DNA from: Zhihengliuella salsuginis | GTDB lineage: Bacteria; Actinomycetota; Actinomycetes; Actinomycetales; Micrococcaceae | Length of the DNA stretch: 43,861 bases | Assembly: GCF_014651715.1 (NCBI RefSeq) | Contig: NZ_BMXK01000014.1 | Span: 1-43,861 of the forward strand | Direction of reading: 5' to 3' | Shown: positions 9,823 to 26,451 of the stretch, in pieces | How positions within the stretch are numbered: the stretch's first letter is position 1 | Layout: every line of letters begins with the position of its first letter | The notes under the pieces: generated by a model | Seen by the model: the letters and a program-made list of their open reading frames with translations, nothing else | What the model was told of the DNA's origin: nothing | Database searches by the model: none | Program-made: the position numbers and the translations under genes

Positions 9823-9864
9823 GCGGAAGGGCGCCCGCCCGCAACGCGGGAAGGTGCTCACCGC

Positions 9865-10028: not shown

Positions 10029-10814
10029 GTGGCCACGAAGAACGCACATCAGATCGAGGGTCGGCTCGACGATTCCTCGGCAGTGCCGAAACACGCGCAG
10101 CTCCGCGAAATCCTGCGGCACCATGCGAAGAGCGCCTGCAGGCCGGGGGAGGGACTCCCCTCGGAGCGGGATCTCACGACCCGATTCGGCGTTGCCCGGA
10201 TGACACTGCGCCAGGCCATCGACGCGCTGGTCGAGGACGGGACCCTCGAACGCGTTGTCGGCCTGGGAACGTTTGTCGCACGGCCCAAGATGGACCTCCA
10301 GGTCAAGCTCACCTCCTACAGCGAGGAGATGCAGCGCCGCGGCATGGTGCCCGCGGCGCGAGTGCTCAGGTTCGACGAGGTCCCGGCCGTAGGAAACCTC
10401 GCCCGCGAGATGGAACTGGCCGACGGGACGCCCGTCGTGCGGTTCCGCCGGCTGCTCCTGGCCGACGGCATGCCGATGAGCCTCGACGAGAACTTTCTGC
10501 CGGCGCACCAGGTGCCCGGATTCCTCGACGAACCCGCCCCCAGCAGCCTCTACAGCAGCCTCGAGGAGCGGTACGGGCTCGTGATGCAGTGGGGAGAGGA
10601 CCAGATCGAGGCGACGGCCGCCAAACCCGAGTACGCACAGCTGCTCGCCGTCGACGCCGGAGCGCCACTCCTCCGCATCCAGCGGCACGCCTACGTGCGC
10701 CGCGAACTCGTCGACTACTCCATCTCCTACTACCGGGCGGACCGCTACAAGCTCTGGGTGCCGCTGCAACGTCCGGGGACGCGGAGGTCGAGCTCCCGTG
10801 ACTACAACCGCTGA
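10029..10814 (+). CDS. GntR family transcriptional regulator (HutC/NagR-like)
   Basis: A 261-aa repressor-type regulator. A winged-helix domain spans residues 20-85 (LPSERDLTTRFGVARMTLRQAIDALVEDGTLERVVGLGTFV). A UTRA ligand-binding domain spans about 100-250. This is the layout of the HutC/NagR/DasR subfamily, whose members sense sugar phosphates, histidine derivatives or similar small molecules. The ligand is not evident here. The GTG at 10029 follows AAAGGAG; the longer open frame to 9510 is a shadow of ctaF. The gene is alone between two perfect 19-bp hairpins, so it is transcriptionally insulated from both respiratory units. A possible -10 (TATGCT) is at 9977-9982. Confidence 0.9.
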   Translation: MATKNAHQIEGRLDDSSAVPKHAQLREILRHHAKSACRPGEGLPSERDLTTRFGVARMTLRQAIDALVEDGTLERVVGLGTFVARPKMDLQVKLTSYSEEMQRRGMVPAARVLRFDEVPAVGNLAREMELADGTPVVRFRRLLLADGMPMSLDENFLPAHQVPGFLDEPAPSSLYSSLEERYGLVMQWGEDQIEATAAKPEYAQLLAVDAGAPLLRIQRHAYVRRELVDYSISYYRADRYKLWVPLQRPGTRRSSSRDYNR

Positions 10815-10863
10815 AAACGCTGTCAGGGGGCCTGTAGGGGCTTCCAGAAGGCCATAGACGCAA

Positions 10864-10907
10864 ACGAGGGCCGCGGCACCGAATCGAATCGGTGCCGCGG
10901 CCCTCGT
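10864..10907. terminator. Bidirectional terminator between gntR and qcrB
   Basis: A perfect 19-bp stem (10864-10882 with 10889-10907) with a 6-nt loop. It lies between the convergent ends of gntR (10814) and qcrB (10934) and so can serve both. Confidence 0.85.
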
Positions 10908-10933
10908 TCTAGAGTGAAACGCTCGCGGTCAGG

Positions 10934-12601: not shown

Positions 12602-13641
12602 GGTCGCTCCCAGTATCCGGGTCCAACAGGTTCATGGAAGTCGCTCTGGGCAACCAGGAAGCCGTCAGCATCGACCGTGATCGGCAGCTGCGGCAGCGCG
12701 TGTGCGGCGGGGCCGAAGATGACCTCGCATTCCTGCGTGAGGTCGAAGGTCGACTGGTGGCAGGGGCACAGCAGGTGGTGCGTGTGCTGCTCGTAGAGTG
12801 CCACGGGGCATCCGACGTGCGTGCAGATCTTCGAGTAGGCGACGATTCCGTCGTGGTGCCAGTCCTCGCGCTCCGGCGAGACGTTGAGATCCTCGGGGTT
12901 CAGGCGCATCAGCAGGACGACGGCCTTGGCCTTCTCGTTGAGGGGATCCTCGGTCTCGTTCAGCCCATCCGGGATGACGTGGAAAGCGGAGCCGATCTGG
13001 ACGTCGGACGCCTTGATCGGGGTACCGGAGGGGTCGCGCGTCAGTCGGACGCCCTTGTCCCACATGGTGTGGCGCAGGCGGTCGACGATCTCACTCGCGC
13101 TCGCCTTGGTGAGGTCGAGGTCGCGCAGGATGACGATTCCCGGCAGAGGGGCCAGAGCCAGGGCCCCGATGAGGCTGTTCCTGATCAGCGGTCGACGGCT
13201 GATGCCGGACTCGTCGACGATCGTGTTGACAATCTCCTCGGCCTCCTGGCGGCCCTCTTCGGTGCGGACCTCATGGCGGGATTCCGCGATCTCGTGGTCC
13301 GGCATCAAGGTGCGCGCCCAGTGGACGATGCCGACGCCGATGCCCAGCATCGCGAAAGCCGTACCCGATCCGAGCAGCATGTTCTGCAAGCGGATTTCCG
13401 CGATCGACTCGGGATGTCCCACCGCGAAGTAGCCGACGAAGAAGAGCACGGTGCCGATCATCGAGATAGCGAAGAGAATCGCTACCTGGCGCTCGGCGCG
13501 CTTTGCTGCCCGCGGATCCGTATCGGTCAGTCGAGCCCGATGCGGCGGAAGGCCCGGATCCTGGATCTTGTCCAGGGAGTCATCCTGAGCCTTAGCAACG
13601 GTGCCCGACTCCTGCGGACTGCCGTGACTATGGTCGCCCAT
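12598..13641 (-). CDS. qcrA: Rieske iron-sulfur subunit of the bcc complex
   Basis: Carries electrons from menaquinol to the dihaem cytochrome QcrC through a 2Fe-2S cluster. It is 347 aa from the ATG at 13641. Like other actinobacterial QcrA proteins it has three membrane helices (two near 60-115, one near 165-185) before the C-terminal Rieske domain. The cluster motifs are CTHVGC and CPCHQS (the second usually reads CPCHGS elsewhere). An ATG at 13653 is also in frame, but it has no spaced ribosome binding site; GAGAG sits about 5 nt before 13641. It overlaps qcrB by 4 nt. Confidence 0.94.
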   Translation of the reverse strand: MGDHSHGSPQESGTVAKAQDDSLDKIQDPGLPPHRARLTDTDPRAAKRAERQVAILFAISMIGTVLFFVGYFAVGHPESIAEIRLQNMLLGSGTAFAMLGIGVGIVHWARTLMPDHEIAESRHEVRTEEGRQEAEEIVNTIVDESGISRRPLIRNSLIGALALAPLPGIVILRDLDLTKASASEIVDRLRHTMWDKGVRLTRDPSGTPIKASDVQIGSAFHVIPDGLNETEDPLNEKAKAVVLLMRLNPEDLNVSPEREDWHHDGIVAYSKICTHVGCPVALYEQHTHHLLCPCHQSTFDLTQECEVIFGPAAHALPQLPITVDADGFLVAQSDFHEPVGPGYWERP

Positions 13642-13712
13642 GTTGTCTCTCATCCTCTATCTAAAGTGTTCGGTACGAATGTGGTGCGGTGCTTGAGCCC
13701 ACCGCACGAGGC

Positions 13713-14501
13713 TCAGGACGGACGCGAAGTCAGCCAGATGGTGAAGGCGATGATGATGCCCAGACCGGCGGTCCACACGAAGAGGCCCTCGGAAACGGGT
13801 CCGAGGGAGCCCAGCTTGGCGCCACCGGGGGAGCCCTGCGCTTCGATCTCCTTGAGGAAGGTGATCACATCGCGCTTGTCCTCCGGGCTGATGTTGGAGT
13901 CGTTGAAGACGGGCATGTTCTGCGGGCCGATCACCATGGCCTCGTAGATGTGCTTCTCTTCGACGCCTTCGAGCGACGGGGCGAACTTTCCGCGGGTCAG
14001 CGCGCCACCGGCGGCGGCGGCGTTGTGGCACATCGCGCAGTTGACGCGGAAGATCTCGCCGCCCTGACCCGAGTTGCCGAGCGAGGTGTCCAGGTATTCG
14101 GCTTCCGGCACTGCGGGGCCGGCGCCGAGGGACGCAACGTAGGCGGAGAGCTGCTGGACCTGTTCGTCGTCGAACTGAACCGGCTTCACCTGGGCCTGCG
14201 GGCCCTGCATCTGCATCGGCATGCGCCCGGTTCCGACCTGGAAGTCGACCGAGGCCGCACCAACACCAATGAGGGACGGACCGGCATCAGTGCCCTCGGC
14301 ATTCATGCCGTGGCAGGTGGCGCAGTTCGCGAGGAAGAGCTTGTTGCCCTCCTCCACGTCGCTGGCGCTGTAGGCGCTGGCGGCCTGCGCTTCGTTCACG
14401 CTGCTCGCGGCTGCATACAGGCCGCCTGTGACGAGCAGACCCATTAGGAGCAGCGCTACAGCGGCGAGCGGATGCCGGCGCTTTTGCGAAAGTGCCTTCA
14501 C
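13713..14501 (-). CDS. qcrC: Dihaem cytochrome c subunit of the bcc complex
   Basis: Actinobacterial QcrC has two c-type haems and replaces a soluble cytochrome c by linking the bc1 part directly to the aa3 oxidase. Both CxxCH motifs are present: NCATCHGMNAEG and NCAMCHNAAAAG. There is an N-terminal anchor helix (PLAAVALLLMGLLVTGG) and a C-terminal one (LFVWTAGLGIIIAFTIWLTS). I start it at the GTG at 14501 (262 aa) because GAGGAA lies 7 nt upstream. A GTG at 14516, 15 nt earlier, has no ribosome binding site. It lies between ctaE and qcrA in one operon. Confidence 0.95.
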   Translation of the reverse strand: MKALSQKRRHPLAAVALLLMGLLVTGGLYAAASSVNEAQAASAYSASDVEEGNKLFLANCATCHGMNAEGTDAGPSLIGVGAASVDFQVGTGRMPMQMQGPQAQVKPVQFDDEQVQQLSAYVASLGAGPAVPEAEYLDTSLGNSGQGGEIFRVNCAMCHNAAAAGGALTRGKFAPSLEGVEEKHIYEAMVIGPQNMPVFNDSNISPEDKRDVITFLKEIEAQGSPGGAKLGSLGPVSEGLFVWTAGLGIIIAFTIWLTSRPS

Positions 14502-14560
14502 TTGCTGGTTCCTCACTAGTTATCTTGGAAGTTGGTGATGCGGTGGTGGCCGGTGCCGGT

Positions 14561-15199
14561 CTACTTCAGGAAGTAGATGATGGCGAAGAGGGCGATCCAC
14601 ACGACGTCGACGAAGTGCCAGTAGTACGACGTGACGATCGCCGAGGTGGCCTCGAAGTGGCCGAATTTCTTCGCGATGTAGGCGCGGCCGATGATCAGCA
14701 GGAACGCGATCAGCCCACCCGTGACGTGCAGGCCGTGGAAGCCGGTCGTCATGTAGAAGGCGGAGCCGTACGGGTTCGAGTCCAAGGCGATGCCGTGGTG
14801 GACGAGTTCGGTGTACTCGTACGCCTGGACGGAGACGAAGATCGCGCCGAGGATGAAGGTCAGGATGAACCACTCGATCATGCCCCACTTCTTCATGTTC
14901 CACATCCCGCCGGTGCGGCGCGGCTGAAGGTTTTCAGCAGCGAAGACGCCGAACTGGCAGGAGAAGGAACTCGAAACGAGGATGATCGTGTTGATCAGCG
15001 CGAACGGAACGTTCAGCTTGTCGGTCTCCGTCGCCCACATCTCCGGCGACGCCGCGCGGAGTGTGAAGTACATGGCGAAGAGCGCGGCGAAGAACATCAG
15101 CTCGCTGGCAAGCCAGACGACAGTTCCCACCGACACCATGTTGGGACGGTTCGGTGCAGCGTGCACCGGGGCATTGAGGGCATGAGTCGCAGTTGTCAC
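14561..15199 (-). CDS. ctaE: Cytochrome c oxidase subunit III
   Basis: Subunit III of the aa3 oxidase, 212 aa with five to six membrane helices. It shows the usual [21 protein letters not shown] start region, the conserved [14 protein letters not shown] and the C-terminal [14 protein letters not shown]. It is the first gene of ctaE-qcrC-qcrA-qcrB, separated from qcrC by about 60 nt. The GTG start at 15199 is preceded by CATAAT with a 6-nt spacer, so it is probably leaderless. It is divergent from trpD. Confidence 0.95.
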
Positions 15200-15205
15200 A
15201 GCCCC

Positions 15206-15211
15206 ATTATG
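15206..15211 (-). promoter_or_regulatory. -10 element for leaderless ctaE-qcrCAB operon
   Basis: On the minus strand CATAAT is followed by GGGGCT and then the GTG at 15199. It is one of the closest matches to TATAAT in the window. Confidence 0.55.
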
Positions 15212-15334
15212 TCCAAAAATGAGGCCACTTCACCAATGGGTCGAGCGTGATCTTGCCCGTTTTCACGCCCCTCGAGCCGTCTAGCCCCGGAATGACGGGG
15301 GAGAAACAATTCCGCGCTTTCTACAAAACGTAGA

Positions 15335-15340
15335 TAACCT
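15335..15340 (+). promoter_or_regulatory. -10 element for leaderless trpD
   Basis: TAACCT, then GTAGGC, then the GTG at 15347. No ribosome binding site is present. Confidence 0.5.
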
Positions 15341-15346
15341 GTAGGC

Positions 15347-16402
15347 GTGTCTACGTTCAGCGCCGCCCAAGAGTTCCCGAATTGGCCCACGATCCTCTCC
15401 ATGCTGATCGCCGGGGAGAGCCTCCCGCGCGATGCCGCAGCCTGGGCGATGGGGGAGATCATGTCCGGAAACGCCACCGACGTCCAGATCGCCGGATTCC
15501 TCGTCGCGCTCCGCTCGAAGGGCGAAACGGTCGACGAGCTGGCGGGCCTCGTCGACTCCATGGTCGAAGCCGCCCGCCCGCTGGAGATCGCCGGCGAGAA
15601 GCTGGACATCGTCGGCACGGGCGGAGACCGGCAGAATACAGTGAACATATCGACGATGGCCGCGCTTGTATGCGCCGGGGCCGGGGCGCGCATCGTCAAG
15701 CACGGAAACCGCGCCGCGTCGTCGACCTCCGGCTCAGCGGACGTGCTCGAGGCCCTCGGAGTGAAGCTCGACGCGGACATCGAATCCCTGCCGGCGATGG
15801 TGGACACGGCGGGGATCGTCTTCTGCTTCGCGCAGGTCTTCCACCCGTCGATGCGCTACGCGGCCGTCGCCCGCCGCGGCCTGGGTACGGCGACGGTGTT
15901 CAATTTCCTGGGCCCGCTGACCAACCCGGGCAATCCGACGGCGTCCGCCATCGGGTGCGCCGACTCCCGCATGGCGCCGCTCATGGCCGGCGCACTCGCC
16001 AGCCGGGGCCGGCGCGGTCTCGTCTTCCGCGGCGACGACGGGCTCGACGAGATGACGACGACGGCCGGCAACAGGGTCTGGGAGGTCCGCGACGGGGCCA
16101 TCACAGAGCATGCCGTGGACCCGACCGAGTTCGGACTGGCCCGCGTGACGATCGAGCAGTTGCGCGGCGGTGACGCGGACTACAACGCCGGCGTCGTCCG
16201 CGACGTCCTGTCGGGGCGGCGGGGGCCGGCGCGCGACGCCGTCGTCCTCAACGCGGCGGCCGGGCTGGTGGCCTACGACACCGACGCGGTCGGAACCCTC
16301 GAGGAGCGGCTGGCCGCGGCGATCGAACGGGCGGAGCGGTCCATCGACGAGGGCTCGGCCGCCGCGGCGCTCGAGGGCTGGGTCGCCGCGACCCGCGGCT
16401 GA
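15347..16402 (+). CDS. trpD: Anthranilate phosphoribosyltransferase
   Basis: Transfers phosphoribose from PRPP to anthranilate, the second step of tryptophan synthesis. It is 351 aa. It contains the PRPP/Mg loop [17 protein letters not shown] near residue 88, [21 protein letters not shown], the mid-domain [11 protein letters not shown] and the second metal site (RGDDGLDEM). It is not with other trp genes; the position beside ctaE and an Lrp-type gene is common in this group. The GTG start is supported by the leaderless -10 at 15335-15340. Confidence 0.96.
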
Positions 16403-16403
16403 C

Positions 16404-16458
16404 GCGGCACTGCCCCACGTACGGCTGCGGCCTGCGGCGCCTCGAACGTGGGTGCCGC
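16404..16458. terminator. Possible terminator between trpD and the RAM-domain gene
   Basis: GCGGCAC and CCACGT (16404-16420, split by a 4-nt bulge) pair with ACGTGGGTGCCGC at 16446-16458 in the 83-nt gap between two convergent genes. The bulge and 25-nt loop make it a weak call. Confidence 0.35.
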
Positions 16459-16485
16459 CGGCCGCCGTCGTGCCGTCCAGGGGGC

Positions 16486-16764
16486 CTACTCGAGGCCGAG
16501 GGAGAACGCCGCGTCGAGATCGTGCTGCGAGAACGCGCGGAAGGCGAGGTGCGTGGTCGTCTCGACGACGCCCTCCACCTTGTTCACGCGGTTCGAGATG
16601 ACCTCGGCGAGGTCCTCGTAGCGCTTGATGCGAACGATGGCGATCAGGTCCCAGTCGCCGGCGACCGAGTACACCTCGCTGATGCCGTCGAGCTCGGAGA
16701 GCTTCTGCGCGCACTCCGGGATGCTGTCTGTCTGCGCCTGGATCATGACGAATGCTGTGACCAT
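16486..16764 (-). CDS. Stand-alone Lrp/AsnC ligand-binding (RAM) domain protein
   Basis: A 92-aa protein consisting only of the RAM domain of Lrp/AsnC regulators (MVTAFVMIQAQTDSIPECAQ through VEGVVETTTHLAFRAF). The helix-turn-helix half is absent. Such stand-alone RAM proteins may bind amino acids and associate with full-length Lrp proteins. Its place beside trpD is conserved in many Actinobacteria, but a role in tryptophan control is only a guess. AGGAGA lies 8 nt before the ATG. Confidence 0.88.
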   Translation of the reverse strand: MVTAFVMIQAQTDSIPECAQKLSELDGISEVYSVAGDWDLIAIVRIKRYEDLAEVISNRVNKVEGVVETTTHLAFRAFSQHDLDAAFSLGLE

Positions 16765-16844
16765 GGATGTCTCCTAGCGTGGAAGGGGCCCCGACTGCGA
16801 GGGACCGGCGGGGGAGTGCGGTCGAACCGCACCCGCTTGCTCGC

Positions 16845-17237
16845 CTACAGCTTATGCGACGTCGGCTCGTCGCCGCGGCCCCGGGGTCGGGCGATCAGGC
16901 GGGACACCGCGCGCCGGCCCATCAGGAGGACGCCCAGGGTGATCACTGTGACGATGACGAAGGGCGTGGCGGCGGTGGCTCCGAAGATCACCCGGAGCGC
17001 CAACCCGAACGCGACGACGCCGAGCCACGTCATGACGCCCTGCGGCCAGAAGCGCAGGTGCGTCTCGGGGTAGCGCGTCATCGAGGCCATGGCCAGCAGT
17101 GCGAGGAGGAACGGTGCCGCGGTCTGGGCGATGCCGGCGAGGGTGAGCCCGTGCTCGTGGGTCTGGCGCCCGAGCAGCGCGAACACGATGATCAGGGCGG
17201 CGTCGACGGCGAGGCTGATGATCCAGGAAGTGCGCAT
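16845..17237 (-). CDS. DUF3054 membrane protein
   Basis: A 130-aa integral membrane protein with four predicted helices (about residues 4-22, 36-52, 67-85 and 88-108) and a basic C-terminal tail (RRAVSRLIARPRGRGDE). Pattern and length match DUF3054, found in Actinobacteria and haloarchaea, function unknown. The ATG at 17237 follows a TAGGAT hexamer by exactly 6 nt, so it is probably leaderless. Nothing in the context suggests a job. Confidence 0.8.
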   Translation of the reverse strand: MRTSWIISLAVDAALIIVFALLGRQTHEHGLTLAGIAQTAAPFLLALLAMASMTRYPETHLRFWPQGVMTWLGVVAFGLALRVIFGATAATPFVIVTVITLGVLLMGRRAVSRLIARPRGRGDEPTSHKL

Positions 17238-17243
17238 GGAACC

Positions 17244-17249
17244 ATCCTA
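17244..17249 (-). promoter_or_regulatory. -10 element for leaderless DUF3054 gene
   Basis: On the minus strand TAGGAT, then GGTTCC, then the ATG at 17237. Confidence 0.5.
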
Positions 17250-17300
17250 GGGAGTCCCACGGGGACTCCGGGCCGCACCGCGGGAGACAAGGGCCGGGGC

Positions 17301-17329
17301 TTGTAACCTCTGACACAAGGTTTTAGACT
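17301..17329 (+). promoter_or_regulatory. -35/-10 promoter for the leaderless satD-like gene
   Basis: TTGTAA (17301-17306), a 17-nt spacer, and TAGACT (17324-17329), then 6 nt (TGTCGC) to the ATG at 17336. It is the only leaderless promoter here with both hexamers and ideal spacing. Confidence 0.6.
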
Positions 17330-17335
17330 TGTCGC

Positions 17336-17968
17336 ATGCTCGTGTTGACGATAGACCAGCGCCACTCGCGGTCGAGTCCCGACCTCGTGGGGGAGCTCAT
17401 CGACTGGATCGACGGGGCCTGTGAGGCGCTCCGCCCCTTCGAGCGTACCGCCGGTGACGAGGTGCAGGGAGTGCTGCCGACGGCCGAGTCCGCCGTGCAG
17501 CTGGCCCTCGACATCGTGAAGTCCGGCGAGTGGAGCGTGGGCATCGGGGTCGGGGCCGTCGAGGAGCCGCTGCCGGCGCAGACGCGCGCCGGCAGGGGAG
17601 AGGCGTTCGAACGGGCGCGCGACGCCGTCGAACGGGCGAAGACCTCCAGCGGCCGGGTGGCCGTGACGGGACCGCCTCTGGAGACCGAGCGCCTGGAGGC
17701 GGAGCTGCAGATGATCGCGGCGGTCAATCTGCGCCGCACCAAGACGTCCGAGGAGGCCGGGCAGATGATCCGCTCGGGCATGACGCAGCAGGAGGTCGCG
17801 GTGAAACTGGGCATCAGTCAGCAGGCGGTGTCGAGCCGGCTGTCCTCGGGCCTCTGGTACGAGACCCAGCGTCTGACGGAGTCCGCGATCCGCGCCCTCG
17901 AGGAACTCGATGGAACACCGGGCGGGCGCCAGCGCCAGCCCGCAGGACGACGGGAGGCGAACCAGTGA
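17336..17968 (+). CDS. SatD-like protein with C-terminal helix-turn-helix
   Basis: A 210-aa protein resembling the SatD family. The N-terminal ~130 residues have the look of a nucleotidyl-cyclase-like fold: MLVLTIDQRHS start, RTAGDEVQGVLP at 37-48 in the place of a GGDEF/GGDEFQ loop, and a GIGVG strand at 69-73. A clear helix-turn-helix follows at 149-173 (MTQQEVAVKLGISQQAVSSRL). No membrane segment is seen. The combination suggests DNA binding controlled by a nucleotide-binding or degenerate cyclase domain, but neither activity is proven by sequence. The stop overlaps the start of the next membrane gene (GTGA), so the two are co-translated. Confidence 0.7.
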   Translation: MLVLTIDQRHSRSSPDLVGELIDWIDGACEALRPFERTAGDEVQGVLPTAESAVQLALDIVKSGEWSVGIGVGAVEEPLPAQTRAGRGEAFERARDAVERAKTSSGRVAVTGPPLETERLEAELQMIAAVNLRRTKTSEEAGQMIRSGMTQQEVAVKLGISQQAVSSRLSSGLWYETQRLTESAIRALEELDGTPGGRQRQPAGRREANQ

Positions 17969-18546
17969 TCTGGACCGCGTGGGCTCTACTGATCGGCGTG
18001 ACGGGGTTGTCCCTGTTCACGGTGCTGCGCACGTGGCGACCTGGGGCGACGGCGCGGCGCACGCCCCTGGCGATCGCGCTGGCCGTACTGCTGTCGCTGG
18101 CCGCGGGCGCCGGCGTGATCGGCGGAGCGCTGGCGGCCGCGGCCGTGCCCGCCGCGCTGGCGATCGTCGTCTCCGTCGGCGCAGCCACGCTCGGCGGCGG
18201 CCCGGTCGCTGAGGCGATGTTCCGCTGGGCCTCGTTCAAGCACGACGGCGGCGCGCTGCTCACCGTCGGTATGCCGGCCGACGCCGTCGCCCGGGGCGGG
18301 GAGCCCGAGCCGGGCGGGGCGGTCCTGCGCGGCGGGCTCTGGATCGGCATGCTGGAACGCGGGGCCATCGCCTCCACGCTCTGGGCGGGCTGGCCGGAGG
18401 GGCTCGCCATCGTGCTGGCGGTCAAGGGCCTGGGCCGCTTCACGGAGCTGAAGCAGCACGCGGCAGCCGAGCAGTTCATCCTCGGCACCTTCGCGAGCGT
18501 GTTGTGGGCCTGCGCGGCCTACGGCGTCGGGCGACTGCTGATCTGA
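17965..18546 (+). CDS. Membrane protein coupled to the SatD-like gene
   Basis: A 193-aa membrane protein of unknown function. Hydrophobic spans are at about residues 2-20, 36-78 (probably two helices), 136-154 and 170-192. The C-terminal third is the distinctive part: GMLERGAIAST, LAIVLAVKGLGRFTELK and AEQFILGTFASVLWA. I associate this pattern with small membrane proteins found beside SatD-like genes. The GTG at 17965 overlaps the SatD stop by 4 nt. It is probably the membrane partner of the SatD-like protein; the function of the pair is unknown. Confidence 0.75.
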   Translation: MIWTAWALLIGVTGLSLFTVLRTWRPGATARRTPLAIALAVLLSLAAGAGVIGGALAAAAVPAALAIVVSVGAATLGGGPVAEAMFRWASFKHDGGALLTVGMPADAVARGGEPEPGGAVLRGGLWIGMLERGAIASTLWAGWPEGLAIVLAVKGLGRFTELKQHAAAEQFILGTFASVLWACAAYGVGRLLI

Positions 18547-18608
18547 TCCGGTCGGAGTCCGGTTGCGAGGAGCCCGCGCGGGGGAGTCGAAGGGTGCGGG
18601 GGAGCGGC

Positions 18609-19046
18609 CTACGGCTCCCAGCGGACGTCCGTCGTGCAGGCGGACGTCCGCGCGGCCTCGAGCCCGGTCGCGCACTGGCCGTCGACCAGACGCCGGTCTC
18701 CGAGGGGCTCTGCCAGCTCGAACGTGGCCGGGACCTCGGGATTGCCCGGGCATGTCGCGGCGTCCAGCCCGAGATCCTCGACCGTGTAGGAGACGACGAC
18801 TTCCGCCGGGCCCTCGTCGATCGTCGGTTCGCCGACGTCGCCCGTGACGCCGCCGCTGCACTCGAGGCGCGTGACCAGCACGTCGACGTGCAGCGATTCG
18901 GCCTCGGGTGGCGACGCGTCGTCGATGCGCCAGGTGGCCACCGGAAGATCCTCGGGCGACGGCGTGCACCCGGACAGCACGACGACGGCGCACGCGGCCA
19001 GCCCGATCAACCCGCGGCGCGGGCAGGCAGCGGAGTCGGTCGTCAT
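18609..19046 (-). CDS. Hypothetical lipoprotein
   Basis: A 145-aa predicted lipoprotein. The N-terminal signal (PRRGLIGLAACAVVVLSGC) has an LSGC lipobox with the acylated Cys near residue 29. The mature part is acidic and contains three further Cys (ECSGG, ATCPG, GQCATG) plus CTTDVRW near the end, so disulfides are possible. I do not recognise a family. The ATG at 19046 gives a normal signal peptide; a TTG 36 nt upstream is less likely. It is convergent with the SatD-like operon and the nearest gene left of the dif site. Confidence 0.65.
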   Translation of the reverse strand: MTTDSAACPRRGLIGLAACAVVVLSGCTPSPEDLPVATWRIDDASPPEAESLHVDVLVTRLECSGGVTGDVGEPTIDEGPAEVVVSYTVEDLGLDAATCPGNPEVPATFELAEPLGDRRLVDGQCATGLEAARTSACTTDVRWEP

Positions 19047-19155: not shown

Positions 19156-19183
19156 AGTTGACATAATGTACATTATCGGCTTG
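19156..19183 (-). other. dif: dif site (XerC/XerD chromosome dimer resolution)
   Basis: Read on the minus strand this 28-bp element is an 11-bp arm (CAAGCCGATAA), a 6-bp centre (TGTACA) and an 11-bp arm (TTATGTCAACT). It matches the actinobacterial dif pattern as I remember it (CCGATAAT, two variable bases, ACATTATGTCAA) and agrees with E. coli dif at 20 of 28 positions. The core ATAATGTACATTAT (19163-19176) is a perfect 14-bp palindrome and is sharply AT-rich against its surroundings. It lies in the 263-nt gap between divergent genes, as expected for dif. XerC/XerD should recombine here under FtsK control, marking the replication terminus. Confidence 0.88.
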
Positions 19184-19309: not shown

Positions 19310-19891
19310 GTGCGCCAGCTCATCGCGACCGCGTTCATCTCGCTCGACGGAGTCATGGAAGGACCGGGCGGAGAACCGGGCTACCGGAACTCCGGCTGGA
19401 CCCAGACGAGTGTCGAGTTCGATCCGTCGGCCTACGAGCTCAAGGGCCGGGAGCAGGACGAGGCCGGCGCCATGATGCTGGGGCGCCGCAGCTACGAGGC
19501 GTTCTCGGGCGTCTGGCCCAGCATGACCGAGGAGTTCCCCCGCTACAACGAGATGCCCAAGTACGTCGTGTCGACGACGCTGGAGGAAGGCGAGCTCGTC
19601 GACAACTGGGGCGAGACGCGCATCCTGCGCAGTACCGAGGATGTCGCCGCCCTCAAGAACGCCGCGGGGCCGCCGATCTCCATCCACGGCAGCGGGGAGC
19701 TCGTACGATCGCTCACCGACGCGGGGCTCGTCGACCGATTCCACCTCCTGGTGTTCCCGGTGCTCCTCGGTGCGGGCAAACGCTACTTCAGCGACGCCGA
19801 CAAGGCGGCCCAGCGACTGCGGCTGGTGGAGCAGTCGAGCTACGGCAACGGCGTGCAGATGCAGATCTTCGACTACCTGGGCAGCGAGTAG
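19310..19891 (+). CDS. Dihydrofolate reductase-like (RibD C-terminal domain) protein
   Basis: A 193-aa single-domain protein of the RibD_C/DHFR-like family. It begins RQLIATAFISLDGVMEGPGG, has MMLGRRSYEAF for NADPH binding, and ends with ISIHGSGELVRSL and LLVFPVLLGAGKRYF, all standard for the stand-alone group often annotated as dihydrofolate reductase family. These enzymes are expected to be NADPH reductases. True folate activity is usually not demonstrated, and riboflavin synthesis is equally unproven. The GTG at 19310 follows GAGGAAAGGGA. It is the first gene right of dif, and def follows 79 nt later. Confidence 0.9.
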   Translation: MRQLIATAFISLDGVMEGPGGEPGYRNSGWTQTSVEFDPSAYELKGREQDEAGAMMLGRRSYEAFSGVWPSMTEEFPRYNEMPKYVVSTTLEEGELVDNWGETRILRSTEDVAALKNAAGPPISIHGSGELVRSLTDAGLVDRFHLLVFPVLLGAGKRYFSDADKAAQRLRLVEQSSYGNGVQMQIFDYLGSE

Positions 19892-19970: not shown

Positions 19971-20597
19971 ATGCAGCGTCCCATCGACACCGCCCGCACC
20001 CTCATCGACGCCGGCGAGGACGGACCTCTTCCGGCGATCGTCCAGATGGGGCACCCCGCCCTGCGCACGCCGGCGGCGCCCTACGACGGCGAGCTGACGG
20101 ACCACGAGCTGCTGGCCCTGCTCGGCGTCATGCGCAGGACCATGCACGCGGCTCCCGGCGTCGGTCTCGCGGCGCCCCAGATCGGCCTCGGCTGGCAGCT
20201 GGCCGTCATCGAGGACTCCGCCGACGTCGTCGAAGCGGTGGCGGCCGAACGGGAGCGCACGCCGCTGCCCTACTTCCCCGTGCTGAATCCCAGCTACTCC
20301 CCCATGGGCGAGGAGACGGCGGGCTTCTTCGAGGGATGCCTGTCGATGGCCGGATACCAGGCCGTGGTCGAACGGCCCCGTGAGATCGCCGCCACCTACT
20401 ACTCGACCGATGGGGAGCAGGTCAGCCGCGAGCTCACGGGCTGGCCGGCGAGGATCTACCAGCACGAGACAGACCACCTCGCCGGCACGGTCTACATCGA
20501 CAGGGCCGAAACGCGCAGCCTGACCTCCGCCGGGGAATACCTGGCACGCTACTCGACGGCGGACATCCAGGACGTTCGTCAGGCCCTCGGCTTCTGA
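19971..20597 (+). CDS. def: Peptide deformylase
   Basis: Removes the N-formyl group from new proteins. It is 208 aa. All three metal/catalytic motifs are present: GVGLAAPQIG at 63-72, EGCLSM at 121-126 (Cys ligand) and HETDHL at 165-170 (two His ligands and catalytic Glu). A ~20-residue insertion (DSADVVEAVAAERERTPLP) lies between motifs 1 and 2. The gene is not with fmt, so another copy may exist elsewhere in the genome. The ATG at 19971 follows an AGGGAGA ribosome binding site; the frame open back to 19641 is a shadow. Confidence 0.95.
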   Translation: MQRPIDTARTLIDAGEDGPLPAIVQMGHPALRTPAAPYDGELTDHELLALLGVMRRTMHAAPGVGLAAPQIGLGWQLAVIEDSADVVEAVAAERERTPLPYFPVLNPSYSPMGEETAGFFEGCLSMAGYQAVVERPREIAATYYSTDGEQVSRELTGWPARIYQHETDHLAGTVYIDRAETRSLTSAGEYLARYSTADIQDVRQALGF

Positions 20598-20677
20598 GCG
20601 GGCCGGTAAAGTTGTCGGGTCCGCCGCCGCGATGCGCGGCGGACGGCCAGCAGACGACGACCGGCAGGAGTGACGGC

Positions 20678-21571
20678 ATGAACGTCGAATCGAACCCCGA
20701 CGTCGGGGCGGCGCCGTCGGGCGTCGGATGGGAGCACCTGCGCTGTCCCGTGTGCGCCGCACGGCTCGTCCGGCGCGACCGGACGCAACTCGCCTGCTCG
20801 AGCGGACACCGGTTCGACGCGGCGAAACAGGGATACTTCAACCTGCTCACCGGCCGGGGAACATCGTTCCGCGAGGACACGGCCGACATGGTCGCCGCCC
20901 GGGCCGACTTCCAGGCAGCGGGCCACTACGAGTCCCTGGCCGACGCGATCGCCGAAGCCGTCGGGGCACACGGGCGCCTGCCCGGCGACGGGGAACCCCT
21001 GCGCCTGCTCGACGCGGGCGCAGGGACCGGCTATTACCTCGACCGGGTCCTCGGCCGAAGGAAACCGGGAGCCGCCGAAGCGGTCGCCGCGGACATCTCC
21101 CGCTACGCCATGCGTCGGGCCGCGAAGCTGGCGGACACGCTCGCCCTCGTCTGGGACGTCTGGAAGCCGCTGCCCCTGGCCGACGCCAGCATCGACGTCC
21201 TGCTCAACGTCTTCGCGCCGCGCAACGGGGCCGAGTTCCGGCGCGTCGTGCGCCCGGGCGGCATCGCCGTCGTCGTCACTCCCCTGCCGGAACACCTCCG
21301 CGACGTCGCCGAGACCCTGCAGCTGCTGGAGATCGCCGGCGGCAAGGAGGCCGCCGTCGCCGAGACGCTCGGCGACGCGTTCGCACCCGTGTCGAGCGGG
21401 ACGGTGCGCACCACGCTCGAGCTCTCGCGGGATGATGCGCTCCGCCTGGCGGTCATGGGTCCGGCCGGGCACCATCTCGACGCCGACGGCCTCCGGGCGC
21501 GGCTCGCCGACGGCCCCGCGGTGCTGGAGACGACGGCGGCCTTCCGCGTCCAGGTGCTGCGCCGCCGCTGA
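20678..21571 (+). CDS. 23S rRNA (guanine-N1) methyltransferase, RlmA family
   Basis: A 297-aa SAM-dependent methyltransferase. The N-terminal zinc knuckle has Cys23, Cys26, Cys40 and His44 (CPVCAARL...CSSGHRFDAAKQGYFNLL), the hallmark of RlmA. The SAM-binding motif is LLDAGAGTGYYL at about 109-120. In Gram-positives RlmA(II)/TlrB methylates G748 of 23S rRNA and contributes to tylosin/mycinamicin-type macrolide tolerance; the paralogue acting on G745 is Gram-negative. Which position is modified here is inferred from lineage. GGCAGGAG lies before the ATG at 20678. Confidence 0.88.
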   Translation: MNVESNPDVGAAPSGVGWEHLRCPVCAARLVRRDRTQLACSSGHRFDAAKQGYFNLLTGRGTSFREDTADMVAARADFQAAGHYESLADAIAEAVGAHGRLPGDGEPLRLLDAGAGTGYYLDRVLGRRKPGAAEAVAADISRYAMRRAAKLADTLALVWDVWKPLPLADASIDVLLNVFAPRNGAEFRRVVRPGGIAVVVTPLPEHLRDVAETLQLLEIAGGKEAAVAETLGDAFAPVSSGTVRTTLELSRDDALRLAVMGPAGHHLDADGLRARLADGPAVLETTAAFRVQVLRRR

Positions 21572-21674
21572 AGATCCTCCTTCAGGGGGACGCCGAATCG
21601 CCCGGCGATCAGGCAGGATGGAGGGTAACGAGGGCGGCAAGGGCCCTCCCGAGCGAACGTGTGGTGACCTGCGG

Positions 21675-22136
21675 ATGATCGAGTGGATCGTCGCCAACGG
21701 CTGGGTGTTCTGGCTGGCCCTGTTCCTCGTCCTGGCGATCATCGAGGTGATGTCGCTGGACCTCTACTTCATCATGCTCGCCACCGGCGCTCTGGCCGCG
21801 GTCTTCACCGCTCTGGCCGGTGGGCCGTTCTGGCTGCAGACGCTCGTGTTCTGCGTGATCGCGCTGCTGATGATCCTCTTCCTCCGGCCGATCGCCCTGC
21901 GGCACCTCAGACGAAGTCCGGCAGACCGCTTGACGAACGTGGACCGCCTGGTCGGACTCGACGCGCTGGTCCTGGAGCCGACCACCCGGCTGAGCGGCCG
22001 CGCGAAGATCGGCGGGGAGACCTGGTCGGCACGCGTCGACGGCGACGCGACCCTGGAGCCCGGAACCTACGGCCGGGTGACGCGGATCGTCGGGGCCACG
22101 GCCTACATCACGGAGCGGACGCCGACAGAAACGTAG
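21675..22136 (+). CDS. NfeD family membrane protein
   Basis: A 153-aa short NfeD. Two to three membrane helices (about residues 8-25, 29-46 and 51-70) precede a C-terminal OB-fold domain (NVDRLVGLDALVLEPTTRLSGRAKIGGETWSARVDGDATLEPGTYGRVTRIVGATAYI) with the typical VDG turn. NfeD proteins are partners of SPFH proteins in membrane microdomains, and the next gene is an SPFH protein 56 nt downstream. The ATG at 21675 has only a weak ribosome binding site. Confidence 0.88.
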   Translation: MIEWIVANGWVFWLALFLVLAIIEVMSLDLYFIMLATGALAAVFTALAGGPFWLQTLVFCVIALLMILFLRPIALRHLRRSPADRLTNVDRLVGLDALVLEPTTRLSGRAKIGGETWSARVDGDATLEPGTYGRVTRIVGATAYITERTPTET

Positions 22137-22192
22137 TTCAGGCCGCACCCGACCATCCAGCCCCACCCCACATCACACCAGAGGGGAAACAC

Positions 22193-23137
22193 ATGTCCGA
22201 CACATCGAATCTCGGGACGGCCATCGTCCTGATCGTCCTGGCGGCTTTCGTCATCATCGTGCTGTTGCGATCGATCAGGATCGTGCCGCAGGCCCGCGCC
22301 GGCATCGTCGAGCGCCTCGGAAAGTACCAGCGGACCCTCGGGCCCGGCCTGACACTGCTGATTCCGTTCATCGACCGCCTGCTGCCGCTGCTGGACCTGC
22401 GCGAGCAGGTCGTCAGCTTCCCGCCGCAGCCGGTTATCACCGAGGACAACCTGGTCGTCTCGATCGACACGGTCGTCTACTTCCAGATCACGGAGCCGCG
22501 CGACGCGACGTACGAGATCGCCAACTACATCCAGGCAGTCGAACAGCTGACGACGACGACGCTGCGCAACGTCGTGGGCGGGCTGAACCTGGAAGAGGCT
22601 CTGACGAGCCGCGACCAGATCAACGGCCAGCTGCGCGGCGTCCTCGACGAGGCGACGGGCAAGTGGGGCATCCGCGTCTCCCGCGTCGAGCTCAAGGCCA
22701 TCGACCCGCCCCTGTCGATCCAGGACTCGATGGAGAAGCAGATGCGCGCCGAGCGCGACCGTCGCGCCGCCATCCTGACGGCCGAGGGTACCAAGCAGTC
22801 CGAGATCCTCACGGCTGAAGGCGAACGCCAGGCCTCGATCCTCGCGGCCGAGGGCGATGCCAAGGCCTCGATCCTCCGCGCGGACGGCGAGGCCCAGGCC
22901 ATCCAGAAGGTGTTCGACGCGATCCACGCGGGCAACCCGGATCAGAAGCTGCTGGCCTACCAGTACCTGCAGACGCTCCCCAAGATCGCCCAGGGATCGG
23001 CGAACAAGCTGTGGATCATCCCCAGCGAGGTCGGCGAGGCGCTCAAGGGCATCGGCGGCGCGCTCGGCAATATCCAGCCCGGCGGCGGCGACGCCGACGG
23101 CGGGGCCGCTGCGGGCGAAAACCCGGCAAACCAGTAG
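22193..23137 (+). CDS. SPFH/Band 7 (stomatin-like) membrane protein
   Basis: A 314-aa stomatin/QmcA-type protein. One N-terminal membrane helix (residues 7-27) is followed by a Band 7 domain (IVPQARAGIVERLGKYQRTLGPGLTLLIPF through VELKAIDPP). An alanine/glutamate-rich helix has four near-repeats of about 11 residues, each with an A-E-G or A-D-G turn (AEGTKQSEILT, AEGERQASILA, AEGDAKASILR, ADGEAQAIQKV), consistent with a coiled coil for ring assembly. The tail is Gly/Ala-rich. It likely organises membrane domains with the NfeD protein upstream. AGAGGGGAA precedes the ATG at 22193. Confidence 0.93.
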   Translation: MSDTSNLGTAIVLIVLAAFVIIVLLRSIRIVPQARAGIVERLGKYQRTLGPGLTLLIPFIDRLLPLLDLREQVVSFPPQPVITEDNLVVSIDTVVYFQITEPRDATYEIANYIQAVEQLTTTTLRNVVGGLNLEEALTSRDQINGQLRGVLDEATGKWGIRVSRVELKAIDPPLSIQDSMEKQMRAERDRRAAILTAEGTKQSEILTAEGERQASILAAEGDAKASILRADGEAQAIQKVFDAIHAGNPDQKLLAYQYLQTLPKIAQGSANKLWIIPSEVGEALKGIGGALGNIQPGGGDADGGAAAGENPANQ

Positions 23138-23145
23138 GTTCTGCG

Positions 23146-23151
23146 TATACT
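23146..23151 (+). promoter_or_regulatory. SigA-type -10 element upstream of rbpA
   Basis: TATACT, one of the closest matches to TATAAT in the window, about 100 nt before the rbpA start. No good -35. Confidence 0.5.
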
Positions 23152-23180
23152 GGTTAGTCGGGTCGTATCAGTGGCGGTCG

Positions 23181-23206
23181 GGAATCATTCCGACCGCTCT
23201 GACGTT
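23181..23206 (+). promoter_or_regulatory. SigR/SigH-type promoter for rbpA
   Basis: GGAAT (23181-23185), exactly 18 nt, then GTT (23204-23206). This is the consensus of the thiol-stress ECF sigma factors SigR/SigH. It would start transcription near 23213 and leave a ~37-nt leader containing GGGAGAG. rbpA is a known SigR target in Streptomyces. Confidence 0.65.
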
Positions 23207-23249
23207 AAGCCGAATGTCGTGAAGCGTTACTGACGCAGTAGGGAGAGTA

Positions 23250-23591
23250 ATGAGCGATCGCAGTCTGCGCGGAATGCGCTTGGGCGCACAGAGCATGGAG
23301 TCCGAGGCCGGGGTCGAGCCGGCGCCGCGTCAGCGCGTCGAGTACCGGACCGAAGGCGGCGAGCAGGTGTTCGTCACGTTCGCCTCCGAGGCCGAGATCC
23401 CGGCGACGTGGGTGTCCAAGAGCGGCAAGGAGGCCCTCCTCGTCAACGGCCACAAGCCCGACGAGGACAACTCCAAGCCGGTGCGCACCCACTGGGACAT
23501 GCTGCTGGAGCGCCGCTCCGAGGAGGAGCTCGAGGAGATCCTCGAGGAGCGTCTGAAGAAGATCCGCGCTGCACGCGGCGAGAACGTCTGA
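23250..23591 (+). CDS. rbpA: RNA polymerase-binding protein RbpA
   Basis: RbpA binds the principal sigma factor and RNA polymerase and stabilises open complexes in Actinobacteria. It is 113 aa. It shows the N-terminal SLRGMRLGAQSMESE tail, the core domain (RVEYRTEGGEQVFVTFASEAEIPATWVS) and the C-terminal sigma-interaction domain THWDMLLERRSEEELEEILEERL. The core has no cysteine at all, so the zinc site seen in some family members is absent. Its promoters suggest control by SigA and a SigR-like factor. It is convergent with ppm1 across a shared terminator. Confidence 0.96.
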   Translation: MSDRSLRGMRLGAQSMESEAGVEPAPRQRVEYRTEGGEQVFVTFASEAEIPATWVSKSGKEALLVNGHKPDEDNSKPVRTHWDMLLERRSEEELEEILEERLKKIRAARGENV

Positions 23592-23614
23592 TCTGACGCC
23601 TCCTGCTGGATCGA

Positions 23615-23650
23615 AAAGGCCGGACCACCCCCGCGGGTGATCCGGCCTTT
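23615..23650. terminator. Bidirectional terminator between rbpA and ppm1
   Basis: AAAGGCCGGA (23615-23624) pairs with TCCGGCCTTT (23641-23650). Inside, CACCC pairs with GGGTG across one mismatch, with a CCGC loop. The A-run and T-run at the two feet suit termination in both directions. Confidence 0.85.
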
Positions 23651-23679
23651 CGCATGCCGCCGAGGCGGCCCTGCGGGCT

Positions 23680-24408
23680 TTAGCGGGTGCCCGCGGAGAG
23701 CTTCTTCCAGCGCGCCGCCAAGCCCCACCGCGTGACATTGAGGACGGCCTCGACCACGATGTTGCCGCTCATCTTGGAGACGCCCAGCTCGCGCTCGACG
23801 AACGTGATCGGCACCTCGGCGATCGTGAAGCCCTGGCGTGCCACGCGGAAAGTCATGTCCACCTGGAACCCGTAGCCCACCGACTCGATGGCGTCGAAAT
23901 CGATGGCCTCGAGAGTCTCGCGGCGGAAGGCCCGGAAGCCCGCGGTGATGTCGCGGACCGGGAGACCGAGCATCGTCCGCGAGTAGAAGGAGCCTGCCCG
24001 GGAGATGAGTTTGCGGTGCAGCGGCCAGTTGACGACGCTGCCGCCCGGAACCCACCGGGAGCCGATGACGAGGTGCGCCTCGGGAACCTCGGCGAGCAGG
24101 CGGGGAAGGTCCTCCGGCCGGTGCGAACCGTCTGCGTCGAGTTCGACGATCACGTCGTAGTCGCGCTCCAGGGCCCAGCGGAACCCGGCGATGTAGGCCG
24201 CCCCCAGCCCCTCCTTGCCTCGCCGGTGCATCACGTGGATGTTCTGGTCCTCCGCGGCCATGCGGTCGGCCAGGTCCCCGGTCCCGTCCGGGCTGTTGTC
24301 GTCGGCGATGAGGACGTCGGAGTACGGGACAGCGGCCCGGAGGCGGTCCACCGTGACGGGAAGCGCTTCGAGCTCGTTGAAGGTGGGGATGATGGTCAGT
24401 ACGCGCAC
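23680..24408 (-). CDS. ppm1: Polyprenol-phosphate mannosyltransferase (Ppm1/DPM1 domain)
   Basis: A 242-aa GT2 glycosyltransferase that moves mannose from GDP-mannose to polyprenyl phosphate, making the donor for extracytoplasmic mannosylation and lipoglycan synthesis. Motifs include the N-terminal LTIIPTFNELEALP, ADDNSPDGTGDLAD, GLGAAYIAGF, the metal site DADGSHRPED (91-100), and GFRAFRRETLEAI. There is no fused N-acyltransferase domain as in mycobacterial Ppm1 and no obvious membrane helix, so it resembles the soluble DPM1 type. The GTG at 24408 is the start. A TATAGT hexamer (24453-24458, minus strand) is a possible -10. Confidence 0.92.
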   Translation of the reverse strand: MRVLTIIPTFNELEALPVTVDRLRAAVPYSDVLIADDNSPDGTGDLADRMAAEDQNIHVMHRRGKEGLGAAYIAGFRWALERDYDVIVELDADGSHRPEDLPRLLAEVPEAHLVIGSRWVPGGSVVNWPLHRKLISRAGSFYSRTMLGLPVRDITAGFRAFRRETLEAIDFDAIESVGYGFQVDMTFRVARQGFTIAEVPITFVERELGVSKMSGNIVVEAVLNVTRWGLAARWKKLSAGTR

Positions 24409-24538
24409 GGAGCTGTGGTGCCCTTCTGAACGGGGGTTGATGCCAGTCCCCCACTATACGGTGGCATTCCTGTCAGTGCGCTGAACGCGCTGCCGTGCGC
24501 GGCGCGCTCGACCGGCGTGAGAGGGCGTCCGCGCCCGG

Positions 24539-24624
24539 GACAGGGAAAAACCCCGATGACTTCGGACCAATGGCGGCGTGCGTGTCCCCATTGTTTTCTA
24601 ATGCCATCGGGGTTTTCCCCTGTC
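24539..24624. repeat. 20-bp inverted repeat around a 46-nt loop
   Basis: Arms 24539-24558 (GACAGGGAAAAACCCCGATG) and 24605-24624 are complementary at 19 of 20 positions. Inside the loop CAATGG and CCATTG pair as a second hairpin. Each arm also contains an A/T tract between G and C runs, so either strand ends its stem in GGGGTTTT. It could be a bidirectional terminator or the 3' part of a structured RNA. Confidence 0.7.
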
Positions 24625-24703
24625 GTTGTTGCCGGTCGCCCGGCGCGGCAGGCGAGGGATCGCGTGAAGCGGGAAGCCCGTCGGCGACTGCCGGTGATTC
24701 ACC

Positions 24704-24731
24704 AGCCTAGTGGCTCATCCCACACTGTCAA
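24704..24731 (-). promoter_or_regulatory. Candidate minus-strand promoter in the noncoding gap
   Basis: TTGACA (24731-24726 on the minus strand), a 16-nt spacer and TAGGCT (24709-24704). It would start near 24697, inside the palindrome GGTGATTCACC, and read through the large inverted repeat at 24539-24624 towards ppm1. Confidence 0.4.
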
Positions 24732-24764
24732 CCGTCTTGTGACCAGTGTGAATCGAGATAGAAC

Positions 24765-26417
24765 CTAGTCAGTGCCGAGGCTGGGCCGCGACGCCGGATT
24801 CGCGTCCGGCGCGGACGGGTCGTCCACCGCGAAGAGGACCTCTCCGGCGCGCACCGTCCGCAGGCAGCGGGGAAACTCGTTTTCCAAAACGGGGAGCAAC
24901 GGCGTGCCGGCGCGTGCATCCGTGCTCCAGGAGGCCACGCGGGTGTCCGGCGTCTGCACCATCATCTCGGACGGGCTCCAGACCGCGAACGTGGCCTCCC
25001 CGCCGGGGACGAGCTGTCCGCCGAAGGGGATGTCGACCCCCGCGGCCCGGTAGCCGGAGCGGGTGTGGGCGAGGAAGGCTGCGCGCGCCGAGATCCGCGC
25101 GGACTCCGTCGACAGGTTCAGGCACGCTTTGACGCCCGCCCACGGGTCGACGACGGTCACCGGAGCGTCCGATCCCAGGCAGACCGGTATGCCGGCCGCC
25201 AGGAACCTGCCCGCCTCGTTCATGCTGAGGGACCGCTCGGGGCCCAGCCGCGACGCGTACAACCCGCCGGGACCGCCCCAGAGCGCGTCGAAGGCCGGTT
25301 GCAGGGAGACCGTCACACCGGACGCGAGAAGCGCGGCGATGACGTCGTCGTCCACCATCTCCGCGTGCTCGAGGCGGTGTCCCAGGCGCTGCAGGGCGTC
25401 CTCGCCGACGACCGCCGCCGCACGGCGGAATCCCTCGGCCGCGGCATCGGCACCGGCATCGCCGATGACGTGGAAACCGGCCTGCACCCCCGCCCGGGTG
25501 CAGGCGACGACGTGGGCGGAGATCTGCTCCGGCGAGAGCAGGAGGGTGCCCCGCTCCCCCGGCGCGTCCGAGTAGTCGGACCGCAGGGCGGCCGTCCGCG
25601 AACCGATCGACCCGTCGATGTTCAGGTCGCCGCCGAGGCCGGCGAAGTACGGCCCGAAGCCCTCCGCGAGCGCCTCGGCGTCGGCGGCCGTCGCCGCGAG
25701 TTCCGCCCAGTAGATGCGGACCAGCGGATAGGCGGCCGGGTCGGCTGCGACGAGCTCCTGCAGCAGTTCGGCATCGCGCCGGCCGCTGATCTGCGGAGCC
25801 GCCATCTCGGCGACGCCCGCGTAGCCGTTTCGCGCGAAGTGCCCGAGCGCCGCGCGGAGGTAGCGCCGCCGCGTGGCGTCGTCGTAGTCCGTCGCCCGAT
25901 CGCGGATCGACCGGTGGGCGTCGCCGGTGACGTGGGCCGTCGCCGTGCTGCGCAGGCCGTCCGCCTGCGGCCCGGCCACGAGTGCGGAGTGGACGTCTAC
26001 GCGCGCCAGGTAGACCTCGGCGCCGGCGGCCGCCGCCTCGAGCTCGCCGACGGAGGGCAGCCGGGGCTCGTCCCACAGCGTCTCGTCCCAGCCGAAGCCG
26101 AGGACGGCCTCGCCCGGTGCCTGCTCTGAGGCCGCGCGGACGGCTCCGAGCACCTCTTCCGCCGAGCGCGCCGTCCGCAGATCGAGCTGCTCGAGGGAGG
26201 CGCCCACCTCGGTGAGGTGTACGTGCGAGTCGAAGAACGCGGGCGCGACGAGGCCGCCGTCGAGGTCGACGACGGTCATCCGGTCGTCGATCAGCGCGGC
26301 GGCGGCCGCCTCCTGGCCGATCCAGGCGACGGTCCCGCCGTCGACCAGCATGGCCGTCGCGAGTGGGTCCGCCGGCGAGTAGACGGAGCCGTTGCGGTAC
26401 ATGACCAGCGAAGACAC
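24765..26417 (-). CDS. Amidohydrolase family protein (YtcJ-like)
   Basis: A 550-aa metal-dependent hydrolase of the amidohydrolase-3/YtcJ group. The N-terminal beta-sandwich (MYRNGSVYSPADPL) leads to the first metal motif FFDSHVHL. Further features are LNIDGSIGSRTAALRSDY, GFHVIGDAGADAA, LEHAEMV and the late Asp in PVCLGSDAPV, all normal for the group. It is probably cytosolic; the substrate is unknown (N-acyl, carbamate or formamide compounds are typical for the group). It lies 34 nt downstream of helY on the same strand and may be the end of that transcript. Confidence 0.88.
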   Translation of the reverse strand: MSSLVMYRNGSVYSPADPLATAMLVDGGTVAWIGQEAAAAALIDDRMTVVDLDGGLVAPAFFDSHVHLTEVGASLEQLDLRTARSAEEVLGAVRAASEQAPGEAVLGFGWDETLWDEPRLPSVGELEAAAAGAEVYLARVDVHSALVAGPQADGLRSTATAHVTGDAHRSIRDRATDYDDATRRRYLRAALGHFARNGYAGVAEMAAPQISGRRDAELLQELVAADPAAYPLVRIYWAELAATAADAEALAEGFGPYFAGLGGDLNIDGSIGSRTAALRSDYSDAPGERGTLLLSPEQISAHVVACTRAGVQAGFHVIGDAGADAAAEGFRRAAAVVGEDALQRLGHRLEHAEMVDDDVIAALLASGVTVSLQPAFDALWGGPGGLYASRLGPERSLSMNEAGRFLAAGIPVCLGSDAPVTVVDPWAGVKACLNLSTESARISARAAFLAHTRSGYRAAGVDIPFGGQLVPGGEATFAVWSPSEMMVQTPDTRVASWSTDARAGTPLLPVLENEFPRCLRTVRAGEVLFAVDDPSAPDANPASRPSLGTD

Positions 26418-26451
26418 AGATATCCTCTTTCGTAACGGGGTGGCGCGTCGC

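Follow-up and report, generated by a model that had tools for sequence, protein, structure and literature searches.

The question raised by this locus is whether a short AT-rich element at positions 19156-19183 is the chromosomal dif site, or whether it merely resembles one, as a promoter, a repressor operator or a site borne by a mobile element might do. The window, i.e. the whole stretch of DNA that was analysed, is 43,861 nucleotides long and represents all of contig 14 of a draft genome of 32 contigs and 3,368,429 bases. An earlier note, made without database searches, had called the element dif and had suggested that the window spans the replication terminus. Our analysis gives a probability of roughly 97% that 19156-19183 is an ordinary chromosomal dif site. 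The 28-bp element was, on this assessment, correctly recognised from sequence alone, and it marks the terminus region of this draft genome. The element, its parts and its neighbours are as follows.

19156..19183, minus strand: dif site (very probable) of 28 bp, reading CAAGCCGATAATGTACATTATGTCAACT on the minus strand; unique in the genome, 25/28 to Frankia alni dif, core in 371 of 395 family genomes
19173..19183, minus strand: putative XerC-binding arm CAAGCCGATAA, read from the sequence and assigned by analogy with E. coli dif
19167..19172, either strand: central 6-bp exchange region TGTACA, palindromic, read from the sequence
19156..19166, minus strand: putative XerD-binding arm TTATGTCAACT, read from the sequence and assigned by the same analogy
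18609..19046, minus strand: left neighbour, ORF of 145 amino acids, putative lipoprotein by the reading of its N-terminus, no Pfam match; context
19310..19891, plus strand: right neighbour, RibD_C-domain protein (PF01872, E 1.1e-27); context

The minus strand of 19156-19183 is CAAGCCGATAA-TGTACA-TTATGTCAACT and thus has the claimed sequence and 11-6-11 layout. The other properties ascribed to the element were likewise found: it has 64% A+T in surrounding DNA of about 63-74% G+C, it contains the perfect 14-bp palindrome ATAATGTACATTAT (19163-19176), and it lies between the minus-strand ORF and the plus-strand RibD_C gene. This intergenic position depends on the choice of genes, as other listed frames overlapping the site were treated as chance. 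For the left ORF we chose the ATG at 19046 as the likely start, where the ORF list has a TTG at 19082.

Agreement with E. coli dif is 20 of 28 positions, exactly as had been stated, and the next best 28-mer of the window on both strands reaches 16. E. coli dif with its XerCD-FtsK system shares with our locus the layout, these 20 bases and the combination of a XerC-like and a XerD-like recombinase with an FtsK gamma domain; it differs in that the outer arms of our site have diverged and that the orienting motif here looks like GGGGGAG rather than GGGNAGGG. The likeness to an actinobacterial pattern, which the earlier note had also pointed out, is closer still: the site matches the dif of Frankia alni (sequence from PMC3025954) at 25 of 28 positions, with 18 for the next best 28-mer of the window. 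Both sites are 28 bp long with an 11-6-11 layout, single in the genome and located at the terminus; the arms in F. alni are GCCGATAA and TTATGTCAA. Our site differs from it at 3 bases, and the centre TGTACA of our site is a palindrome. According to the same paper, a chromosomal dif was predicted in 66 of 66 actinobacterial genomes.

As predicted, the site occurs once. The exact 28-mer has one copy in the 3,368,429 bases of the genome, and the genome has no other match at a tolerance of 3 mismatches. A search of the genome that ignored the centre and tolerated up to 2 mismatches gave a single further match (G000:C5:25565), whose arms differ at 2 positions and whose centre is unrelated. The window itself contains no second dif site, and 100 shuffles of it gave 0 matches to the 23-bp core when up to 3 mismatches were allowed.

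Comparison with related Micrococcales, which had been proposed as a check, agrees with the dif reading. Although the full 28-mer at up to 3 mismatches is restricted to 7 of 39 genomes (our own included), the 23-bp core at the same tolerance is present in 371 of 395 family genomes, again including our own, and in all 32 of 32 genera, against 0 matches for the reversed control; it is absent from the other 24. By hand counts, the core is single in 334 of the 371 genomes that have it and present in more than one copy in 37 of the 395. A two-arm pattern with free centre was found in 40 of 40 genomes; these include our own and 11 genomes that represent eleven other families of the order. In this search, some 2-mismatch matches look like chance and the reversed control also matches a few genomes. 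An exact match of 25 bp occurs in seven actinobacterial records, including named genomes of Kocuria, Haematomicrobium, Geodermatophilus and Phytoactinopolyspora. An alignment of our own sequence around dif with those of G002, G003 and G004, which together make up four of the five genomes of the genus, has a single long stretch without variation, a block of 24 columns inside dif, AGTTGACATAATGTACATTATCGG. The genes adjoining dif are mostly unconserved beyond the closest genomes. This pattern is what a site maintained for its own sake leaves behind, and not the trace of a single gene's promoter.

Within the site, the outermost bases of the putative XerC arm differ between relatives. The inner 8 bases of the putative XerD arm are strongly conserved among the matches listed, which were themselves found by their likeness to that arm. 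The same-genus genomes seen share the palindromic centre TGTACA; among the matches listed, TGTAGA, which is not palindromic, or TGTGGA takes its place in many relatives outside the genus. With a palindromic centre, the polarity of strand exchange would rest on the arms alone. Genomes with several core matches include G383 (C1, C2 and C3), G402, G388 and G399. Among the matches listed, the extra sites differ in the central 6 bp (e.g. TCTCCA vs TGTAGA), which would limit their recombination with the chromosomal dif.

A dif site should be accompanied by signs of the terminus, and the earlier note had expected an extremum of cumulative GC skew near 19 kb. No such extremum exists: past 19 kb the curve drops a little, from 0.61 to 0.54, before climbing to 1.04 where the window ends. 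For G003, a complete genome of the same genus, mean skew is +0.013 vs -0.008 on the two replichores (one-third sample, p 0.001), and the best switch lies at 1.26 Mb, about 190 kb from dif at 1.07 Mb. This fit, with the origin fixed at dnaA and a weak and noisy skew, has a bootstrap range of 0.12-2.28 Mb that covers most of the chromosome. We therefore set GC skew aside as a locator of dif; it is uninformative here, too blunt to count for or against the site.

The distance of dif from dnaA supports a position at the terminus. Measured the shorter way round, it comes to 0.40 or more of the chromosome length in 57 of 59 relatives. In a first set, for which 49 genomes were searched and 44 used, 43 of 44 lie at or above this value (median 0.478); G000, G001, G004 and G404, whose dif and dnaA lie on separate contigs, were dropped, as was G129 for being an assembly of 8 contigs, though both loci are on its C1. 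As this first choice leaned to large dif coordinates, a further 21 genomes were searched, of which six had dif and dnaA on different contigs and 15 were measurable, 14 of these giving at least 0.40. The exceptions are G292, an assembly of 3 contigs, and G358, in both of which dif is 0.293 from dnaA. Single fractions are approximate since many lengths are given to two digits only and some of the 59 assemblies have 2-9 contigs. In the single-contig chromosomes of the same genus, the distance is 0.46 (G003) and 0.50 (G002). In our draft genome, dif and dnaA are on separate contigs, and the position of the terminus is seen only indirectly, via the polarity of a motif described below. It should also be mentioned that dif and the inferred terminus do not coincide in every case, according to PMC13342612.

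The strand of dif that carries TTGACA is the dnaA strand in 16 of the 59 relatives, including both single-contig same-genus genomes, and the opposite strand in the rest. A fixed orientation of dif relative to dnaA can thus be rejected, and the mixed orientation implies inversions across ori or ter in the history of the family.

A sharper sign of the terminus is the heptamer GGGGGAG, which is distributed in the window as follows.

1607..18604, plus strand: 11 GGGGGAG pointing at dif (starts 1607, 3770, 5237, 10145, 13827, 15297, 15451, 16810, 17389, 18580, 18598)
20297..42461, minus strand: 7 GGGGGAG pointing at dif (low ends 20297, 25554, 27115, 30927, 32250, 37836, 42455)

The 11 copies to the left of dif and the 7 to its right are all directed toward it (18 of 18). 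The window has 1,241 7-mers that occur 18 times or more, and of these GGGGGAG alone is fully dif-directed. The switch of polarity brackets dif to 18598-20297 and, taken together with the dnaA distances, supports the proposal that the window spans the terminus region. In G003, 109 of 109 copies within 200 kb point toward dif and the flip falls between -563 and +396 bp. Among all octamers in the one-third sample of this genome, oriented by dif and dnaA, CGGGGGAG has 156 leading-strand copies against 4 on the lagging strand; GGGGGAG is the core of this octamer and the most strand-biased 7-mer of the sample at 255:9 (255/264). Its abundance falls with distance from dif (Spearman -0.49, p 5.9e-5, 60 stretches), from 0.275/kb with 0 of 55 copies on the wrong strand at up to 100 kb to 0.171/kb with 5 of 53 beyond 1.2 Mb.

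The polarity extends well beyond the genus. In 30 relatives from 11 families (20 of the family and 10 from ten other families, hand-chosen among genomes with known dif position and mostly with space on both sides), 528 of 537 copies in flanks of up to 20 kb each side point toward dif and 9 away; contig ends shortened the flanks to 7.2 kb in G010 and 13.5 kb in G021. The top-ranking 7-mer is GGGGGAG in 24 of these 30 genomes; in one, G044, it falls outside the top four. Seven named 8-kb loci, two of which (L039 and L044) also belong to the 30-genome set, gave 35 copies toward dif and 0 away. In our own draft, the nonamer CGGGGGAGA has 123 places vs 11 for its reversed control, and 98 of the 100 places listed, which cover contigs C1-C8, follow the majority strand of their contig. 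The E. coli KOPS GGGNAGGG is less biased, with 105 vs 61 in the G003 sample and, in the 30-genome flanks, 169:83, an excess due almost entirely to the form with N=G, GGGGAGGG (88:8), the other three together giving 81:75. An E. coli-type KOPS valid for all N was therefore rejected, as it is weakly biased apart from GGGGAGGG. GGGGGAG also differs from the FtsK-orienting motifs of Bacillus and Lactococcus.

The string itself is not new to actinobacteria. PMC2830990 describes (T/C)GGGGGAG and G(A/T/C)GGGGGA as architecture-imparting sequences (AIMS) of Corynebacterium aurimucosum that converge on an actinobacterial dif, and GGGGGAG and the term AIMS recur together in four other Corynebacterium genome papers. 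The core heptamer, its leading-strand bias and its convergence on dif are the same in our genomes; what goes beyond Corynebacterium is the occurrence in 20 Micrococcaceae-family and ten other-family genomes and the polarity down to about 1 kb of dif, seen in one genome. With its strand bias and with abundance and bias rising toward the terminus, the motif fits traits that form part of the AIMS definition in PMC5993296. No designation of GGGGGAG as a KOPS, in connection with FtsK or with the replication terminus, was found in the literature searched, which mostly excluded subscription papers. By analogy with E. coli and mycobacteria, GGGGGAG is probably the FtsK-orienting signal. We consider it reasonably likely, if well short of secure, that GGGGGAG, or the looser RGGGGAG, serves as the FtsK-orienting sequence across Micrococcales and probably much of Actinomycetota, unlike the E. 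coli motif, and that it locates dif to about 1 kb in drafts where GC skew fails. While the dif finding is correct and ordinary, the sharp polar motif in the sampled Micrococcales is the part that a specialist might use: as a cheap test of terminus and contig orientation for high-G+C actinobacteria with weak GC skew, and as a candidate ligand for the actinobacterial FtsK gamma domain.

A different explanation accepts the site as dif but takes the polarity of GGGGGAG as a mutational bias of the leading strand and not as a steering signal for FtsK. The skew of the complete relative G003 given above would agree with this, as would the bias of other G-rich 7-mers such as GGGGGAC (118:44) and GAGGGGG (112:64) in the 30-genome flanks or GGGGGTG (91:55) in the G003 sample. 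However, none of 19 other 7-mers compared in the 30-genome flanks comes near 528:9, the next by ratio being AGGGGAG with 139:15, and GGGGGCG (187:224) and GGGGGTG (107:131) are not biased toward dif in these flanks. Moreover, copies of GGGGGAG become more frequent nearer to dif while those on the wrong strand vanish, as described for selected AIMS in PMC5993296. A purely mutational origin is therefore unlikely, but it is the one alternative to which we give some weight.

The two other alternatives concern the identity of the site and are both highly improbable. The plus strand reads TTGACA at 19158, and the neighbouring genes diverge around a 14-bp palindrome; on this basis, the element could be taken for a promoter or a repressor operator of the RibD_C gene or the lipoprotein gene, a reading that the earlier note had already called naive. 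Our consensus scan of 18900-19500, which covered sigma-70-like promoters only, found no such pair, and a TTGACA promoter was rejected on these grounds. In addition, dif is kept where the neighbours differ: among 32 dif-flanking regions, the lipoprotein gene was matched in G001 and G003 only, and a RibD_C gene at no more than about 1.3 kb from dif was limited to G001, G003, G004, G014 and G041. The core is also single in most of the family genomes that have it, and distant from dnaA. A dif mimic borne by a plasmid or phage (pdif or an IMEX attachment site) might be considered instead, given that relatives carry dif-like sites on other contigs. Yet the window aligns collinearly over almost its full length with the complete relative's chromosome, at 82-86% identity on both sides, and a mobile insertion at dif was rejected for this reason; the absence of any other site in the window, or in the genome at up to 3 mismatches, and the switch of the polar motif at this very place also argue for the chromosomal dif.

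If the site is the chromosomal dif, its recombinases should be present, and our genome encodes one XerD-like (C8) and one XerC-like (C12) protein, both full-length. Of the XerC and XerD equivalog families, each protein scores higher with its own, at values just below the strict NCBIfam equivalog cut-offs (XerD-like 327.5 vs 329.6, XerC-like 325.2 vs 335.15), and both carry the expected catalytic motifs. We infer that they are cognate to this dif. An FtsK gamma domain scores above its cut-off and gives weak matches to the solved gamma domains 2j5p, 2j5o and 2ve8/2ve9 (E about 5e-5). The xerC-like, xerD-like and FtsK-gamma genes are located elsewhere in the genome, away from dif. By analogy with E. 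coli and mycobacteria, the site would act on sister chromosomes that recombination has fused into a dimer. FtsK would read GGGGGAG on the leading strand and be steered toward dif from both replichores, XerC and XerD would bind the two 11-bp arms of both dif copies at the division septum, FtsK would switch on XerD, and strand exchange across the 6-bp centre would release two monomers. Binding and recombination by XerCD and activation by FtsK at this dif are thus deduced from these other systems. In mycobacteria, cassettes flanked by dif are cut out by endogenous XerCD in marker excision (PMC5364183 and PMC4789726); so far as can be judged from the primers printed in PMC5364183, the arms of the mycobacterial dif are similar to those of our site.

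Finally, paired dif-like sites were observed in some relatives. Locus L184 (G023:C2:36000-46000, on an 82.7-kb contig) has two direct dif-like sites at 2191 and 7114, 4.9 kb apart and with different centres. They enclose genes for an ABC ATPase, a putative ABC-2 permease (below the Pfam cut-off), a nitroreductase-family protein, putatively SagB-like by its context, and a YcaO cyclodehydratase. The locus has the look of an actinobacterial pdif module with a modified-peptide cassette as its cargo; judged by title, no literature on actinobacterial dif/pdif modules, Arthrobacter included, was evident. Further pairs occur at 2391 and 5202 in L183 (G022:C13), at 2681 and 7848 in L182 (G013:C15) and at 2777 and 2845 in L185 (G039:C14), in all three cases on a contig other than that of the best dif match. 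A Phd/YefM antitoxin gene lies just outside one of the dif-like sites of L183.
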